Positions 9,986 to 36,063 of a DNA stretch of 64,000 nt are shown piece after piece; position 1 is the stretch's first letter; every line of letters begins with the position of its first letter. The notes under the pieces are model-generated. The model saw only the letters and a list, made by a program, of their open reading frames with translations, ran no database searches and was not told the origin of the DNA. The stretch covers positions 2,356,001 to 2,420,000 of the forward strand of contig NZ_LT996886.1 of assembly GCF_900343145.1 (NCBI RefSeq), read 5' to 3'. Origin of the DNA: Tessaracoccus timonensis (lineage in GTDB: Bacteria; Actinomycetota; Actinomycetes; Propionibacteriales; Propionibacteriaceae). The position numbers and the translations under genes are program-made.

Positions 9986-10068
9986 GGCCGCGCACCCGCT
10001 ACTCAACCACCGGGGCCGGTTCTACTGACCGTCGAGTAGGCCCGAAGGGCCGTATCGAGACGCAGCAA

Positions 10069-10668
10069 CTACAGTCCCGCGATCGAAGCCCGGTAGGCGG
10101 GTTCGTCGTCGGCGGTGATGACGACGTCAGCGTCGCGGCCGCTGAAGTGGAGGAGCAGCTCGTTGGGGGCGCCCTCGACGTAGACCACCTGTTCGCCACT
10201 GCCGAACGACTTGGTGTGCCCGTCGGTGGGCGTCACCACCAGGCGGTACGGCTTGCCCAGCTGCGCCTTGCGCGCCAGCAGCAGCGCAATCTTACGCAGA
10301 TACTCCTGGTCGCTAGAACTCAGCTCCGCGCGCTCGCCACGCGGGCGCAGCACGTCTTCAAGGTGCAGATAGAACTCAGCGCCGTTCACCAGCGGATCGA
10401 CGAGACGCATCACCCAGCCAGGCCGCTCAAGCTTCTCCAGTAACCCCTCGAAACCCAACCGGTGCAGCCCCTCCATCTGCAACCGATCTGTGTGTGCTGC
10501 GAAGCGCGACACGCCGATGCCCGGCAACGCAGACGGGCGATGCTCTCGTACCCACAGATGCGCGGCAAGGTCTTGCACCAGCCAGCCCTCGCAGGCTGTG
10601 GGGGCAAGCGGACCAGCGGTACGCATGACATCGAGCAATTGACGACGTTGGCGGCGGGCAAAAATCAT
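10069..10668 (-). CDS. TIGR03085-type metal-binding protein (DinB/mycothiol maleylpyruvate isomerase-like)
   Basis: 199 residues. The N-terminal half ([38 protein letters not shown]) has the four-helix DinB/MDMPI pattern with the His of AAHLWVREH as likely metal ligand. The rest matches the actinobacterial TIGR03085 family as I remember it. Such proteins are often mycothiol-linked or metal-dependent, but no reaction is established. It is divergent from hisI across about 30 bp and convergent with gatB across the repeat array. ATG 10668 lies 6 nt behind a TAGACT hexamer, so a leaderless mRNA is likely. Confidence 0.75.
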
Positions 10669-10674
10669 AGTTGC

Positions 10675-10680
10675 AGTCTA
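10675..10680 (-). promoter_or_regulatory. -10 hexamer TAGACT, leaderless start of the TIGR03085 gene
   Basis: On the minus strand TAGACT is followed by GCAACT and then ATG (10668), which leaves no room for a ribosome binding site. It lies within the 31-bp gap to hisI. Confidence 0.55.
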
Positions 10681-10699
10681 CCTGCGGTTGAATGGGGGT

Positions 10700-11020
10700 A
10701 TGCCGGAGATCACCTTCAACAAAGACGGGCTCATCCCCGTCATCGCGCAAGACGCCGCCAACGGCGAAGTGCTCATGATGGCCTGGATGAACGAAGAAGC
10801 CTTGCACCTCACCCAAACCACCGGGCGCGCCACCTACTGGTCGCGCAGCCGTAACGAGCTGTGGGTCAAAGGCGACACCTCCGGGCACACCCAAGAGGTC
10901 GTGTCGCTATGGCTCGATTGCGACGGCGACACCATCCTCATGAAGGTCAACCAAGTGGGGGCAGCCTGCCACACCGGCACCCGCACTTGCTTCTCGAACC
11001 CCTTGGAGGTGCAAGCATGA
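10700..11020 (+). CDS. hisI: Phosphoribosyl-AMP cyclohydrolase
   Basis: 106 residues, normal for monofunctional HisI. It contains the [12 protein letters not shown] block, the metal-binding DCDGD motif (aspartates) and the zinc cysteine motif [12 protein letters not shown]. It hydrolyses PR-AMP to ProFAR in histidine synthesis. ATG 10700 is preceded by a GGGGG run. Its last codon overlaps the trpE start (ATGA), so histidine and tryptophan genes are coupled here. HisE (PR-ATP pyrophosphatase) is not fused. Confidence 0.95.
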
Positions 11021-29143: not shown

Positions 29144-29745
29144 TCAAGAAGGTTGGCATTCTCGACTACGGCACCGGCAATCTCCATTCCGCAGCGAAGG
29201 CATTCGAGCATGCCGGGGCCGACGTCATCGTCACCGAGCGGCTGGAAGAGCTGGGGCGCTGCGAAGCGCTCGTCGTGCCTGGCGTGGGTGCTTTTGCTGA
29301 GTGCGCGAATCGTCTCGCGGAAGTCGGTGGGTTCGACTACGTACGGGGCTGGGTGCAAAAGGAGCGCCCGCTGTTTGGCATTTGCGTCGGCCACCAGGTG
29401 CTCTTCTCGTCGGGCCTCGAACACGGTGTGCCCACCGACGGCATCGGCATCTACACCGGTGTGGTGAGCAAAATGCCCGCCACACCGCTGCCGCACATGG
29501 GCTGGAACACCGTTGCTGCTGGGCCGAGCTCCAAGCTGTTCGCAGGAATCCGCGACGAGCGGTTCTACTTCGTGCATTCCTATGCGGTACAGCAGGCCGT
29601 GCGCGGCGCGGTGTACTCCAGCTACGGCGACGTGCGTTTCGTGGCCGCAGTGGAACAAGGCGCGGTGTGCTCCACGCAGTTCCACCCCGAGAAGTCCGGT
29701 GAGGCCGGGCTGCAACTGCTCAAGAACTGGCTCACCGCATACTGA
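29140..29745 (+). CDS. hisH: Imidazole glycerol phosphate synthase glutaminase subunit
   Basis: 201 residues. Class I glutaminase with the nucleophile Cys in [11 protein letters not shown] (about residue 82) and the His-Glu pair in [13 protein letters not shown] (about 185). It feeds ammonia to HisF. GTG 29140 overlaps the hisB stop. The cyclase partner hisF is not found in this window, although it commonly lies just after hisA. Confidence 0.95.
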
Positions 29746-29832
29746 TGCGCGAGCACACACCAGGGCTGTCAAAGGTTGCACTTACGCAGCCCACGTCCTG
29801 TTTCCCCCGCATTGAGAAATCCGCAGATCGGC

Positions 29833-29838
29833 TAGAGT
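29833..29838 (+). promoter_or_regulatory. -10 hexamer TAGAGT, leaderless start of hisA
   Basis: TAGAGT, 8 nt, GTG 29847. A TTGAGA at 29812-29817 lies 15 bp upstream, a little short for a -35. This promoter would drive hisA and the coupled genes to 35225. Confidence 0.55.
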
Positions 29839-29846
29839 TGGGCGAC

Positions 29847-30584
29847 GTGGACACGCTTGATTTATTGCCCGCTGTCGATGTGCAGGGTGGCCAGGCCGTG
29901 CAGCTCGTCCAGGGCGTAGCAGGAACAGAAAAGACCTTCGGCGATCCCCTCGCGGCTGCCAGGCGCTGGGCGGATGCCGGATCGCGCTGGATCCATCTCG
30001 TTGATCTTGACGCCGCCTTCGGTCGCGGCTCAAACGCCGCGCTGCTCGCCGACATCATCGCTCAGATCGACTGCCAGGTGGAGCTCTCCGGCGGCATCCG
30101 CGACGACGCCAGCCTCGAACGTGCACTCGCCACTGGCTGTAAACGCGTGAACGTCGGCACCGCCGCGCTCGAGAATCCCGAATGGTGTGAGGAGATCATC
30201 GCTGCCCACGGCGACGCCGTGGCGATCGGGCTCGACGTGCGGGGTGAGCAGCTCGCGGCGCGCGGATGGACTCGCGAAGGCGGTCGATGGGTGGACACCG
30301 TCGACCGGCTCGCTGCGGCTGGGTGCGAGCGATTCGTCGTCACAGACGTCGAAGCCGACGGCATGCTGACCGGCCCTAACTTCGATCTGCTCGCCGCTGT
30401 GGCAGAGCGCTCGGGCAAGAAGGTCGTCGCTTCCGGCGGCATCGCCACACTCGACCACCTGCGACGGCTGCGTGAGCTCGTCGGAACCGGCATCGAGGGA
30501 GCCATCGTCGGTACTGCGCTCTACGTCGGGCGGTTCACGATCGACGAGGCGCTCGCCGTCGCCGAAGGAGAAGCACATGCGTAA
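29847..30584 (+). CDS. priA: Phosphoribosyl isomerase (HisA / PriA)
   Basis: 245 residues, TIM barrel. [18 protein letters not shown] holds the first catalytic Asp; [46 protein letters not shown] (second Asp) and [12 protein letters not shown] follow. It isomerises ProFAR. Because trpF is absent here and PriA enzymes in actinobacteria do both jobs, it probably also isomerises phosphoribosyl-anthranilate for TrpC. GTG 29847 was preferred over upstream starts because it begins the conserved fold and follows a -10 element by 8 nt. Its end overlaps the next gene by 8 bp. Confidence 0.9.
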
Positions 30585-32919
30585 CCCTGCTGCCTCATTC
30601 GGTGTCGCGGAACGCGGCCACGTGCCTCCATTACTCGACGGGCGGCTGAAAGACCTACTGGCAGGCAAGAAGATTGCCATGACGGGCGTCACCGGGTTCA
30701 TCGGTGAGCAGATGCTGTGGGCGTTCCTCAACGATTGCCCGCAAACGCGCACCGCGGTATTGGTGCGCCCGAAGGGCTCGCTCACGGCGGAAGATCGCGT
30801 GAAGGAGCTGCTCGGGAAAGACATCTTCGCCGAGGTTGTTGAGCGCGCTGGCTCCGTCGAGACGCTGCTGGAGGAGCGCGTCGAGGTTATTCCTGGCGAC
30901 CTGCCCAACGTTCCAGAGCTGCCACGCGACATCGATGTCCTCATCCACTGCGCGGGTGACGTGTCGTTCGATCCGCCCATCGACCAGGCGTTCAAAACCA
31001 ACGTGCTGGGCACCCAGGCGTTGCTGGGGCGTTTCCTCGAGTCCGTGACCGACGACAAGGGCGAGCTCGAGCGTATTCCGCACTACATCCACGTCTCGAC
31101 GGCCTACACCGCAGGTCGGCGTCGCGGCGCCATCCCGGAGACGGCGCATGCGCACGACGTCGACTACATGGTGGAAACCGAAGCCGCGCTGCAGATGGCA
31201 GAACACCTCGAGGCGGCGTCGCGTTCTCCCGAGCAACTCACCAAACTGCGCAAGCAGGCCGAGGCGTTGCACCGCCAGGCGGGTTACCTCACCACGTCGG
31301 AAGATACTGAGCGCCGACGCATCGAGTGGGTGCAGAAGGAGCTTGTTGCCGCTGGCACAGAGCGGGCCCGCTCGCTGGGGTGGACCGACGTTTACACCTT
31401 CGCGAAGGCGATGGGTGAACGCGTGGTGGCCGACATGTGCAAAGACATCCAGGTCTCCATCGTGCGCCCGGCGATCGTCGAATCATCCCTGCGCTACCCG
31501 CACCCGGGGTGGATCGAGGGCTTCAAGATGGCCGACCCCATCATCCTCGCCTATGGCCGCGGACAGCTGCCCGAGTTCCCCGCATCCCCGGATGCGGTGA
31601 TCGACATCATCCCCTGCGACTACGTGGTGAACACCATCATTGCCGTGTGCGCCACGGAGCCCGAGATTGGCCAACCGGAGTTCTATCACTGTGCCTCGGG
31701 CGCCAGGAACCCGCTGACTTTCCGCGGCATTTACGAGCAGGTTCGCGCATACTTCGAGGAGCACCCCTATAACCACGGCACCGCATCGACGCCGCTTGCG
31801 ACGTGGAAGTTCCCCGGCGCGGAACCCGTCGAACGCATGATGTGGCTAGGTGGCAAGGCCACGAAGGTCGCCGACAAGCTGTTGAGCTTCGCGCCGCGTG
31901 GTAAGGGCGTGCGGAAGCTGGCGACGCAGGTCGACCAGTCGCGCAAGCAACTCGACTTCCTCAATAAGTACCTCACCTTGTATGGCGAGTACCTACAGTC
32001 TGAGCTGCACTTCGTCGACGACTGCACCCTCGCGCTGCACAACTCGCTGCACCCCGACGACAAGGAGCGATTCGGCTTCGACTCGGCTGCATTCGACTGG
32101 ACGCACTACATGCAGGACGTCCATGCGCCGTCCGTCTGCGACCCGGAGAAGCGCGCAGCCGCCAGGCGAAAGCGCCGCGCCAACCGTCAGCCCACGTTCC
32201 GCGACATCGAGCCGTCGGATACGCCCGTCCTCGCAGCGTTCGACCTCGACGGCACCGTGATGGCCACCAACGTCATTGAGACGTACCTGTGGTCGAAGAT
32301 GCCGGAACTCTCAGCCTTCGGGAAGGTGGCGGAGCTCGCCAAGCTCGCGACGGCGTTGCCCACCTACCTGGGCGCCGAGCGTCGCGACCGCGGCGTCTTC
32401 CTGCGCTCCATCTACCGTCGCTACGAGGGCGCAGACCTGGAGGCGCTCGAGCAGTACGTCGACGAACGGTTGGCCCCGCTCATCCTCGACCGCATGTCTC
32501 CCGATGCCATCCGGCGCATTCGCGAGCACCGCGACGCCGGGCACACCACGGTGCTCATGACGGGCGTCATTCGCCCGCTGACCAGGCCATTTGAAGGCCT
32601 GTTCGACGTGATCGTCGCGGCAGATCTCGCCACAGACGAGGACGGCAAGTGCACCGGGTTCCTGAGCGGCCCACCGATGGTGGGTGAGTCCCGCTCGGCG
32701 TGGCTCAGGCACTTCGCGGCCCTGCACGGCATTGATCTTGAACACTCGTACGCGTACGCCGATTCGCACGTAGATCTCCCCATGCTGAGCTCGGTGGGGT
32801 ACCCCGTCGTAGTGAGCCCCGACATCGGCCTCATGCGTGCCGCGAAGCAACGCGGGTGGTCGCTCGTCGACTGGCCTGCGCTCAGCCCCATTCCTCGTTG
32901 GAAGATGCCCAAGGCATAA
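30577..32919 (+). CDS. Fatty acyl-CoA reductase-like SDR fused to a HAD-IB phosphatase
   Basis: 780 residues with two enzymes. Residues 30-530 are an extended SDR of the acyl-CoA reductase/thioester reductase group: NAD(P) motif [10 protein letters not shown] (36-45), STAYTAG, the catalytic YTFAK (about 273), and the C-terminal FAR-like segment ending in [14 protein letters not shown]. Residues 550-775 are a HAD-IB phosphatase with [12 protein letters not shown] (nucleophile Asp), [11 protein letters not shown] and [18 protein letters not shown]. It likely reduces a lipid thioester and handles a phosphorylated product, but substrates are unknown. AAGGAG precedes ATG 30577, which lies inside the end of hisA. 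Confidence 0.8.
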
Positions 32920-32931
32920 GAAAGGATTTCC

Positions 32932-34449
32932 ATGTCACGTCCTGGATTCGTGATCGAGGTCGACGAGAAGACCCCGGCACTGCTCACCCTTTCGGGCCAA
33001 CAGCTTGGGCTTAGCAAGCTTGGGCTGGGCACGCAGGTGGTGTACGGCGCGGAAGCCACGCCGTCGACCGACCCGATGAGCCTCATCGATTCCGCCCTCG
33101 CGGCCCCCAACGATGGTGTCGCGTTCGCTGAACGGCTCAAAGCAGATACGAAACTCACCATCGTGGTGGTCGACGACGAGCGTCCCCGCCCACGCATGCG
33201 CTTCGACATCCGGCAAAGCATCCTCGAGCGTGTGCTCGAGGTGGCTGCCAAGCAGCTCGTCGACGACGTCGCCATCGTGATCGCCGGCGGCCTGCACAAG
33301 CGCTGGAGCGCCTTCGACATCACCCGAGCGCTGGGCGACCGCGTCGCAACGAGTTTCCAGCCCGACAGACGCATCGAGAGCCACGACGTGACCGCCGCCG
33401 ATCTGGTGGAGATCGGCCAGGTGGATGGGCACCCCGTGAAGATCAACCGTCGCGTCGCCCAATCCGACGTGGTGGTCACCATCGGTACCCAGTTCGGTCG
33501 AGGCGGAGCCAGCCCGTTCACGAGCAGCATCCTCGACGTCGATACCCTGCGACGTGTCGGGGGAGCCACACCCGATGATGCGTTCATCGACGACGTGCAC
33601 TCGACGGTGCTCGGAGCGCTGGACGTGTTCGCGATCCAGGCAGTGCTCGGTCAGCCCTTCTTCCCAGGTCTGCTGCACTTCGCAGGCGAGCGTGAATGGG
33701 AGTGGTCGTTGGCTGATCGCATGTCGTTCGCGGCGGTGAGGCAGCTAGGAGCCCTCATGCCGAAGAGTGCGGGCCGACGATTTCACGGCACCCCGGTGGC
33801 CGACTACGCGGTGGTCGACGTCGTCAGTGGCGAACCAACCAAGGTGTTCTCCGAGGCCGCAGCAGTGTGGGTGGCTGCCAACGTCGTCGAACTGCCCAAA
33901 CAGGCGGATATCGTTGTGACGCCAGTGTGGGGAGGTGGCTTCGACGAAGGCGACGCGTGCGGTTCCCCGATCAACGCCGCGCACCATGCGCTCGTGAGGC
34001 GCATCGGCACCACGATGGGCAAGCCATACGCCCATGAGCGCGGAGTCGCCATCGCCATGCACCCGCTCACACCGCGCTTTTCCAACCGTCGCCAGTCCTC
34101 GGCCTCCGACTTCTTTGCCAAGGTGCTGCCGCAGACGCTCACCCCGTCGGAGATGGGAGAGTTTGAAGAGGCCGCCTGCGCGGATCAGTGGTACGTCGAT
34201 CTGTACCGCAAACAGTTCGCCGACCATCCGCTGCGCACGTTCCAGTACTGGTACCGCGTGTACGACGCCAGCGAGCAATTCGCAGACGTGATTTGGGTGG
34301 GGGGCAACAGGCTCACCGCTGACCTCTTCGGCCATCGCGCGGCGACAACCTTCGCCGATGCGCTCGAAATCGCGAGTGACAAGGTGGGCCGCCACCCAGT
34401 CGTCACCTACCTGCATGGCCCCGGGCTGCCGCTGGGAGACGTCCAATGA
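32932..34449 (+). CDS. LarA-like (DUF2088, lactate racemase family) protein
   Basis: 505 residues. The N-terminal domain matches the LarA pattern: VVVDDERPRPRMRFDIRQSI, VAIVIAGGLHKRW with the His of GLH near 120, and SHDVTAADLVEIGQVDG followed by VKINRRVAQSDVVVTIG, as in LarA HD...VYINRxVAEAD. LarA uses a nickel-pincer nucleotide to epimerise 2-hydroxy acids; lar cofactor genes are not in the window. The C-terminal half differs from classic LarA. It lies 12 bp behind the reductase-HAD gene and overlaps the next start. The substrate is unknown. Confidence 0.72.
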   Translation: MSRPGFVIEVDEKTPALLTLSGQQLGLSKLGLGTQVVYGAEATPSTDPMSLIDSALAAPNDGVAFAERLKADTKLTIVVVDDERPRPRMRFDIRQSILERVLEVAAKQLVDDVAIVIAGGLHKRWSAFDITRALGDRVATSFQPDRRIESHDVTAADLVEIGQVDGHPVKINRRVAQSDVVVTIGTQFGRGGASPFTSSILDVDTLRRVGGATPDDAFIDDVHSTVLGALDVFAIQAVLGQPFFPGLLHFAGEREWEWSLADRMSFAAVRQLGALMPKSAGRRFHGTPVADYAVVDVVSGEPTKVFSEAAAVWVAANVVELPKQADIVVTPVWGGGFDEGDACGSPINAAHHALVRRIGTTMGKPYAHERGVAIAMHPLTPRFSNRRQSSASDFFAKVLPQTLTPSEMGEFEEAACADQWYVDLYRKQFADHPLRTFQYWYRVYDASEQFADVIWVGGNRLTADLFGHRAATTFADALEIASDKVGRHPVVTYLHGPGLPLGDVQ

Positions 34450-35225
34450 CCCGCCAGCTGAAATCGTGGGCTCGCAGTCAGAAACCCCGACGCGGCCCCA
34501 AGCTCACTCTGTTCCACGACCTTGCGACGATGGGTTTGCGCCGTAATCCGCAGCAAACCTCGCAGCCCCGGCGCAATAGCAACAGCCTCCGGCTCGCGCG
34601 CGACTACGCCCGGCGCATCCGTGTGCTCGCCGCGATGTGGCCGCGCTTTGACGTCGAGGTCGTGGGCGGCGACGCGCTCGTCGGGCTCGAGACCCCGTTT
34701 GTGTTCGCGGTCAACGAAGCAGGAACGCTGGATCAGCAGGTGCTCGCACTAGCCTTGCCTCGCGCGCTGCGCCCGACCACTCGCCGCCCGAGCCGCGCGC
34801 TCAGCAAAGGCCGCAACGTCGTCGTGTTCTCCAGCGAACCCTCTGTCGAGCGGCTCGTCGGCGAGTTCGATTTGACGGCCGCTGAACTGGCCAAGCAGCA
34901 CTCCATCGCGGTGGTGCCCGTCGGGCTGGTGGGTTCGTTCCGGCTGGCAGACACGCTGAAGCTGCGATTGCGCAACAGGCCCAAGGTGTCGGTGCGTTTC
35001 GGCGCTCCGGTGCACGTGGCCACCCGCTCCATCGACGATGTCACCGACGAGGTGCAGGCCCGCGTGGAACATCTCGTCGGAGAAGGTGAGCTGTCATGGT
35101 GGGACGTGGAGCGTCGGAGAACCAGCGGTGACGCACCGGCCTCGCCCCGAGCGGCGAAGTGGCGTCGGCTCTGGGACCAGGCCGAACCCAGGAACGAGGG
35201 AGCACGCCGGCGAATCTGGCGGTAA
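34446..35225 (+). CDS. PlsC-like acyltransferase with altered catalytic motif
   Basis: 259 residues. The middle resembles 1-acylglycerol-3-phosphate acyltransferase: FVFAVNEAGTLDQQVLALALPR aligns with the NHxSxxD motif I, and VPVGLVGSFRL with the VPVxxxGT motif IV. However, the catalytic His is Glu here (NEAGTLD, about residues 89-95), and the FPEGTR motif is replaced by FSSEPSVER. It is probably catalytically inactive or works differently. N- and C-termini are basic. ATG 34446 overlaps the previous stop, so it belongs to the hisA-linked operon. Confidence 0.6.
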   Translation: MTRQLKSWARSQKPRRGPKLTLFHDLATMGLRRNPQQTSQPRRNSNSLRLARDYARRIRVLAAMWPRFDVEVVGGDALVGLETPFVFAVNEAGTLDQQVLALALPRALRPTTRRPSRALSKGRNVVVFSSEPSVERLVGEFDLTAAELAKQHSIAVVPVGLVGSFRLADTLKLRLRNRPKVSVRFGAPVHVATRSIDDVTDEVQARVEHLVGEGELSWWDVERRRTSGDAPASPRAAKWRRLWDQAEPRNEGARRRIWR

Positions 35226-35247
35226 CGGCCTTTTCCGAAAGCTCCTA

Positions 35248-35253
35248 TAGACT
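35248..35253 (+). promoter_or_regulatory. -10 hexamer TAGACT of the yebC-ruvCAB operon
   Basis: TATAGACT lies 36 nt ahead of yebC ATG 35290. The SOS box starts at its last base. Confidence 0.6.
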
Positions 35254-35268
35254 TGAACGCACGTTCGC
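35253..35268 (+). promoter_or_regulatory. SOS box (LexA operator) of yebC-ruvCAB
   Basis: TTGAACGCACGTTCGC matches the actinobacterial LexA consensus TCGAACnnnnGTTCGA at 14 of the 12 fixed and flanking positions that can be compared except two ends: both GAAC and GTTC half-sites are intact. It covers the predicted transcription start, so LexA would block initiation. DNA damage control of ruvCAB fits what is known from mycobacteria. Confidence 0.8.
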
Positions 35269-35289
35269 TTTTGGAAAGGAAGGGTGCCA

Positions 35290-36063
35290 ATGTCAGGTCA
35301 CTCCAAGTGGGCCACCACCAAGCATAAGAAGGCTGCCATCGATGCCAAGCGCGGCAAGTTGTTTGCCAAGCTGATTAAGAACATCGAAGTCGCAGCCCGC
35401 ACAGGTGGCGGTGACCCCGGCGGAAACCCGACGCTGTATGACGCCATCCAGAAGGCGAAGAAATCGTCGGTGCCGAACGACAACATCGATCGCGCCGTCA
35501 AGCGCGGCTCTGGTGTCGAGTCGGGCGGCGCCGCGTACGAGAACATCATGTACGAGGCGTACGGCCCCTCCGGCGTTGCCATCCTCATCGAGTGCCTCAC
35601 CGACAACCGCAACCGTTCCGCCACCGAGGTGCGCATGGGTGTCACCCGCAATGGCGGCACCATGGCTGACGTCGGCTCGGTGCAGCGCATGTTCGCGCGC
35701 AAGGGCGTCGTCACGATCGCCAAGCAGCAGGGCGGGCGTGAGCTGAGTGAGGACGACGTGATGGAGGCCGCGCTCGAGGCCGGGCTCGAAGAGGTCGAAG
35801 ACGCCGGCGACAACTGGGAAGCCATGAGCGACCCCAACGACGTTGTGGAGGTGCGGAAGGCCGTCGAAGCCGCTGGGCTCGAGTACGAATCCGCGGAAGT
35901 CCAGTTCGTCGCATCGTTCGACACCACCGTCACCGACGTCGATACCGCGAAGAAAGTGTTCAACATCATCGACGCGCTCGAGGATTCCGACGACGTGCAG
36001 AACGTGTTCACGAACATCGACCTGGCTCCCGAGGTGGAAGCCGCACTCGACGCTGAGGATTGA
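35290..36063 (+). CDS. yebC: YebC/PmpR family protein
   Basis: 257 residues. Starts [31 protein letters not shown], the family signature, and keeps the three-domain pattern ([50 protein letters not shown]). Members are transcription regulators or, as shown recently for some, ribosome-linked factors that relieve proline stalls. AAGGAAGG precedes ATG 35290. It heads the ruvCAB operon, 9 bp before ruvC, under the SOS box. Confidence 0.94.

Follow-up and report, generated by a model that had tools for sequence, protein, structure and literature searches.

What can a fatty acyl reductase, a LarA-like protein and a PlsC-like protein be doing together behind a histidine biosynthesis gene? The question is raised by a tight gene succession in a 64,000-nucleotide stretch of the Tessaracoccus timonensis genome (contig NZ_LT996886.1, positions 2,356,001 to 2,420,000 of the forward strand; here the window), in which hisA is followed by a reductase/HAD fusion (F), a LarA-like gene (L) and a PlsC-derived gene (P; Table 1). 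An earlier reading of these letters (the original prediction) had proposed that the three genes could make or edit an unusual lipid or hydroxy-acid lipid. Sequence comparison instead favours, as the best reading, that the trio is the reduced form of a conserved four-gene operon, F-A-L-P, in which a zinc-dependent dehydrogenase (A) stands between F and L on the same strand, an arrangement that appears new relative to the literature searched. Taken as a whole, we consider it reasonably probable that F provides the fatty alcohol of ether lipids and that L and P are retained pseudoenzymes of the reduced operon.

The four-gene order emerged from searches with L, which gave any match at E 0.001 in 129 of 396 Actinomycetota genomes and at least 572 confirmed stretches in named genomes, of which the best 80 were kept. 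All 80 loci, which by their titles and names we take to be actinobacterial, come from hosts that include Frankia, Actinomadura, Kribbella, Nocardioides, Phytohabitans and Streptomyces, and 70 of them carry F-A-L-P in this order on one strand. The remainder read FAL (4), ALP (4) or LP (2), and in nine of these ten a contig ends near the missing gene (the exception is L124). Most wide loci from further genomes also display the F-A-L-P order, with P often missed by similarity to the window P. The original prediction had not noticed A, the fourth gene. Since the gene order recurs across the phylum, the association is more than a chance neighbourhood, and a chance or species-only cluster can be rejected. 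Conservation away from hisA, which the original prediction had set as its own test, was found, as F-A-L-P lies mostly apart from his genes outside the host family (Propionibacteriaceae); an origin of the module at hisA is therefore not supported. In Kribbella and Actinopolymorpha, Propionibacteriales outside the host family, the operon adjoins hisF-family genes (profile check of one gene, L173, 8905-9663), and the position at a his locus is therefore older than the host family. The view that no described pathway has this combination held up in our literature searches, which found no published description of it and did not extend to the neighbour table of Desguin 2020 (PMC7583248, Table S1).

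The intact relatives look like working nickel-pincer nucleotide (NPN) and acyltransferase enzymes. The L protein of locus L086 scores 914.3 bits on the NCBIfam model NF052592 (LarAH14/15/16; cut-off 740), and in an alignment with PDB 9q2u, a single-His NPN enzyme, it matches the catalytic His, the Asn, the NPN lysine and the nickel His, residues whose roles are assigned in PMC12611868. The catalytic His, NPN Lys and nickel His are present in 29/29 and 26/26 relatives from outside the host family, and the Asn in 28/29 and 26/26 (overlapping sets). Genes clustering with larB, larC and larE were found in 20, 12 and 13 of 106 loci, respectively. Profile checks at two loci placed larB, larC and larE of L083 above the NCBIfam cut-offs, and larC and larE of L151 likewise, with larB at 168.2 bits just below 175. 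LarC occurs in 78 of the 89 genomes with intact-type L (by score), or 57 of the 63 that are at least 90% complete; the 11 genomes missing a LarC match include six at this completeness. The set of 89 is bounded at a LarA match of E 1e-30, and ten of the weaker matches lie between 2.4e-30 and 4.3e-27. All 41 named F-A-L-P hosts tested have LarC. All 16 P proteins of intact relatives that were inspected have HX4D and EGTR-type residues (NHxSHLD and PEGTRS-type motifs), that of L086 reaching 84.8 bits on PF01553. In Actinomadura (L142, L143, L145, L146 and L151) the larB-like gene is split into two adjacent overlapping open reading frames (ORFs) in our crude gene calls, possibly owing to a frameshift or to the gene caller itself.

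The window L still belongs to this lineage (Lar_N at 62.3 bits, cut-off 23.3; best NCBIfam model NF052592 at 304.7 bits, below the family cut-off of 740), and its residues argue for a pseudoenzyme. The equivalent of catalytic His108 is kept in the window as H122, and is found in 0/13 Tessaracoccus relatives and 1/19 other host-family loci, in an inspection that covered 32 of the 49 host-family L genes (own excluded). At the position of the NPN-anchoring Lys184 the window has S194, and the lysine occurs in 0/13 and 0/19 of the same loci and in one of the 34 rows nearest the window in one alignment. Alignments differ in placing Gly or a gap of the window L opposite the nickel His (His200), which is kept in 0/13 and 3/19. 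Active LarA chemistry in the window L, on which the original prediction relied, is thus not supported; moreover, LarC is absent from 10 of the 14 Tessaracoccus genomes, all of which retain L.

The window P gave no Pfam (PF01553 included) or NCBIfam family match at E 0.1; the name PlsC-derived rests on synteny and on its alignment with PF01553-matching relatives. It reads NE-x4-D where relatives read NH-x4-D, the EGTR Glu and Arg are replaced by Ser and Pro, and the stretch between the two motifs is missing. Across 13 Tessaracoccus loci the HX4D His is replaced by Glu (12) or Ala (1) and the segment before EGTR is missing. The original description of the window P as motif-less was right, and the protein is very probably non-catalytic, in line with the original prediction. 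A is gone from the Tessaracoccus lineage of the window; only one locus of the host family, L082, was found to retain it, and the L of this locus also lacks the NPN lysine.

F, by comparison of motifs, is the member of the window trio that appears intact. It matches Pfam NAD_binding_4 (156.4 bits) and HAD (115.9 bits) and the HAD-IB model TIGR01490 (111.0 bits, cut-off 98.3), residues 25-520 align with a solved fatty acyl-CoA reductase (E 6.1e-47), and TGxxGFxG, YxxxK and FDLDGT are all there. The sterile domain typical of alcohol-forming fatty acyl reductases (PF03015) scores 32.9 bits against a cut-off of 35.4, and the solved reductase aligns through this region to residue 520. The probable product of F is a fatty alcohol that goes into unusual ether lipids. 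In its HAD domain the second DxD position, that of the general acid, is Asp in the host-family copies displayed (window included), and we find Arg at what we presume to be the site of the motif III Lys.

A link to ether lipids comes from alkyl-dihydroxyacetone phosphate (alkyl-DHAP) synthase (AGPS), an enzyme that takes a long-chain alcohol (PMC9702350). Among 147 host-family genomes, 74 have both F and AGPS, 3 have F only, 3 AGPS only and 67 neither, so that AGPS accompanies F in 74 of 77 F-positive genomes; by genus the counts are 19, 1, 1 and 8. When 135 of these genomes were searched with a profile, two of the three with F only yielded a partial AGPS, and the last (G397) is 82% complete. 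In a separate clade of F, AGPS adjoins F in four of six fetched loci (L217-L219 and L221), and the L221 protein scores 488 bits to AGPS in the Protein Data Bank (PDB). The T. timonensis genome itself holds, apart from the window locus, a cassette of a short-chain dehydrogenase/reductase (SDR), a PlsC and AGPS in a row. This AGPS aligns almost full length with PDB 2uuu (392.7 bits), reaches 1011 bits on the profile and keeps SHHHGVG and GHxPDS, and the cassette PlsC is intact (NHSSHFD; PF01553 66.9 bits); the AGPS, acyltransferase and SDR genes that an ether-lipid route requires are hence all present. Because F tracks AGPS in the host family, an alkyl-ether lipid is better placed as the product than a hydroxy-acid lipid; of the original ideas, that of a functional and probably lipid-related module finds support, and that of active epimerisation of a hydroxy acid does not.

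A protein of about 276 residues and no clear family (no NCBIfam match and a sub-threshold Pfam match only) directly adjoins the AGPS-linked F (L221:6843-7670 and 10048-10803, both on the minus strand). Its relatives (L194:1721-2494, L191:1729-2501, L140:1573-2385, L153:1516-2328 and L157:191-1003) recur in some F-A-L-P loci of Phytohabitans and Actinomadura, and it is a possible further partner of F.

From these data we infer a route with F as the alcohol donor. F would reduce a fatty acyl thioester to the fatty alcohol, the PlsC of the cassette would make acyl-DHAP, AGPS would swap its acyl chain for the alcohol from F, and the cassette SDR would reduce the resulting alkyl-DHAP; a later dephosphorylation may fall to the HAD domain of F. 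In the presence of AGPS and of a further PlsC, A would have been lost along with catalysis by L and P, which most likely persist as non-catalytic partners of F. What the computations show is the common operon order, the residue losses, the co-occurrence and adjacency of F and AGPS, and dN/dS values below 1; each biochemical step and the partner role of L and P are inferred.

Several observations weigh against this reading. The co-occurrence of F and AGPS is not independent of phylogeny, and the two are unlinked in Tessaracoccus. Intact F-A-L-P hosts lack a high-scoring AGPS, so the use of F, or the route that it feeds, must differ there. At the second DxD position F homologues carry Glu (24) or Asp (42) in the 66 loci scored among the 74 named loci with F (L123-L202; positions missed by the pattern were left unscored), which weakens the HAD domain as a certain phosphatase. 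P is not dead throughout the host family, because in other genera 11/14 copies keep the His and 5/14 the EGTR Arg, and LarC is found in 22 of 49 host-family genomes with L (own excluded). Finally, L and P are gone from ten sister-genus loci, where F stands alone between hisA and yebC, and because both were lost outright their role cannot be essential. In some of these F-only loci an acetyltransferase-like ORF (read by eye) occupies the gap.

These ten losses, together with the missing LarC of most Tessaracoccus genomes, speak for the same descent in which only F still matters and L and P are simply decaying without any function today. The rates of change lend this some weight, as the ratio of L to F in dN/dS is 1.2-2.6 in 8 degenerate pairs versus 0.40-0.82 in 7 intact pairs, and L has therefore moved from evolving slower than F to evolving faster; P, too, outpaces F. 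Decay without function nevertheless fits poorly with the presence of L, free of internal stops, in 14/14 Tessaracoccus genomes and of P in 13/13 fetched loci of the genus, and with dN/dS values (Nei-Gojobori) well below 1, at 0.15-0.39 for L (8 degenerate pairs) and 0.20-0.44 for P (7 pairs). The pairs were chosen by hand and some share genomes, so that they are not independent, and within this sample L and P are under weak purifying selection. We therefore regard L and P as remnants without a role as rather unlikely.

Alternatively, F might make a fatty alcohol or aldehyde for a product other than an ether lipid, such as a wax ester, the tie to AGPS reflecting inheritance only. The separation of F and AGPS in Tessaracoccus is compatible with this, as is the finding that most F homologues sit in A-L-P operons whose hosts lack a high-scoring AGPS, but their adjacency in the separate F clade (four loci), the co-occurrence across the host family and the use of long-chain alcohol by AGPS argue otherwise, and we hold a non-ether product to be improbable. 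An active LarA working with the fusion on a hydroxy-acid lipid, as originally proposed, can draw on the retained H122 and on LarC and LarE in the own genome, but it is very hard to reconcile with the loss of the NPN lysine and nickel His, the absence of LarC from most L-bearing genomes of the genus and the proximity (6-11 kb) of the LarC and LarE genes to two further larA genes. The loci of these two are C1 878164-886980 (L115) and 2584485-2594936 (L116), and in both of them larE and larC follow a few kb downstream of larA.

How the intact operon relates to AGPS was approached through profile scores. Full-length AGPS of the host family scores 731-1024 bits. AGPS-profile matches at E 1e-60 were found in 8 of the 89 genomes with intact-type L (best 406.8 bits), and 38 of the 41 named F-A-L-P hosts match the profile, with a best score of 433.7 bits (the two sets may overlap). 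True AGPS in the latter hosts was set aside on these scores and because the 12 matches aligned of the 38 (L240-L251) are of a paralogue type, reading GHxPQS versus GHxPDS in 16/16 host-family rows. A group of other genomes scores an ambiguous 463-545 bits, and the dividing score was drawn after the gap was seen. AGPS-profile matches also occur in 76 other genomes of the phylum set (own left out) without intact-type L by the 1e-30 line. The AGPS-like FAD proteins with PQS replacing PDS (L240-L251, L254 and L255) are a common paralogue in Actinomycetota.

The pattern suggests that the F-bearing lineages searched have either an intact A-L-P or a high-scoring AGPS, a correlation in which L stands in for F across the phylum. 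In a tree of F (82 rows, a quick method that leaves some forks open), AGPS-linked F forms two distinct clades, both of them embedded among F-A-L-P lineages. This either/or pattern is the ground for a tentative proposal that we ourselves think doubtful, namely that intact A-L-P performs the function of the AGPS cassette in its place and offers an AGPS-free path from the fatty alcohol of F to an alkyl (ether) lipid via a single-His nickel-pincer enzyme. One possible chemistry would be NPN hydride transfer that transiently oxidises a hydroxy carbon, followed by elimination, addition of the fatty alcohol, re-reduction and then carboxyl reduction. If so, the window trio would be a fossil of the replacement.

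Among described systems, the nearest likenesses are in Myxococcus xanthus (PMC9131029), where elbA-E brings together a FAR1-like reductase, the HAD protein ElbB and an AGPAT/GNPAT-like acyltransferase, and MXAN_1676-1674 combines AGPS, a FAR1/acyltransferase protein and an NAD-dependent epimerase-family protein, resembling F plus the SDR-PlsC-AGPS cassette. These likenesses are by description rather than by sequence comparison; the M. xanthus reductase is fused to domains other than HAD, and the accessible text names no LarA-type protein or zinc dehydrogenase in these operons and gives the function of ElbC as unknown. The own-genome AGPS is like that of the eukaryotic-type route, the alcohol-forming reductase here being a FAR-HAD fusion in a histidine locus. 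Intact L fits the LarAH14/15/16 NPN enzymes (NF052592; PMC7583248, PMC12611868) and intact P the PlsC/AGPAT family (PF01553), unlike the window copies, in which L has lost the Lys and nickel His and P both motifs and the segment between them. PMC12611868 suggests carbohydrate substrates for its single-His subfamily, whereas the context here is lipid-like. Frankia LarAH14 was negative in seven assays (PMC7583248), and in the accessible literature we found no reported substrate for LarAH groups 14-16.

The finding is thus larger than the cluster first noted, being a widespread operon with a nickel-cofactor-type enzyme that is met here in a reduced state. It puts intact LarAH14-16 members into one operon with acyl reductase, zinc dehydrogenase and acyltransferase genes across Actinomycetota, and links the same reductase to AGPS in a family whose nickel enzyme has lost its active site. 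A role for the nickel cofactor in lipid synthesis becomes directly testable, and ether lipids are predicted in Tessaracoccus and its relatives. The natural series from F-A-L-P through F-L-P with apparently dead L and P to F alone would illustrate how a multi-enzyme operon sheds catalysis.

Table 1. Features of the hisA-linked locus (positions in the window; assignments of function are predictions)
Feature	Position	Strand	Basis or remark
hisA (hisA-trpF type), host operon, outside the lipid module	29847..30584	+	GTG start; TIGR01919 328.4 bits, cut-off 306.45
F, fatty acyl reductase (SDR) fused to HAD-IB, motifs intact	30577..32919	+	8-bp overlap with hisA
F, NAD_binding_4 reductase domain, residues 36-354	30682..31638	+	Pfam
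F, HAD domain, residues 553-737	32233..32787	+	Pfam
L, LarA-like, LarAH14/15/16 lineage, NPN-binding residues lost (putative pseudoenzyme)	32932..34449	+	12-bp gap after F; NF052592 and residue comparison
L, codon of H122, equivalent of catalytic His108	33295..33297	+	residue alignment
L, codon of S194, replacing the NPN-anchoring lysine	33511..33513	+	residue alignment
P, PlsC-derived, without catalytic motifs (putative pseudoenzyme)	34446..35225	+	4-bp overlap with L; alignment with intact relatives
P, codon of E91, replacing the HX4D histidine	34716..34718	+	alignment
yebC (presumed), outside the module	35290..36063	+	right flank in the host family too; flank seen in relatives

The succession of four genes on the plus strand and their spacings (Table 1) were confirmed from the sequence; the right-hand flank, which we take to be yebC, is named from a by-eye reading of its ORF. 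The single leaderless promoter once placed in front of the operon was not confirmed, as a consensus scan of positions 29600-35400 gave no site upstream of hisA, and a TAGAGT 8 bases before the hisA GTG is suggestive only.

Beyond the lineage of L, we observed a distant LarA subgroup of about 26-29% identity to the window protein (for example L102:9001-10521, minus strand) that occurs in some other genomes without F, beside an ORF that by eye we take to be CoA-transferase-like; at least 10 of its host genomes also give AGPS-profile matches.

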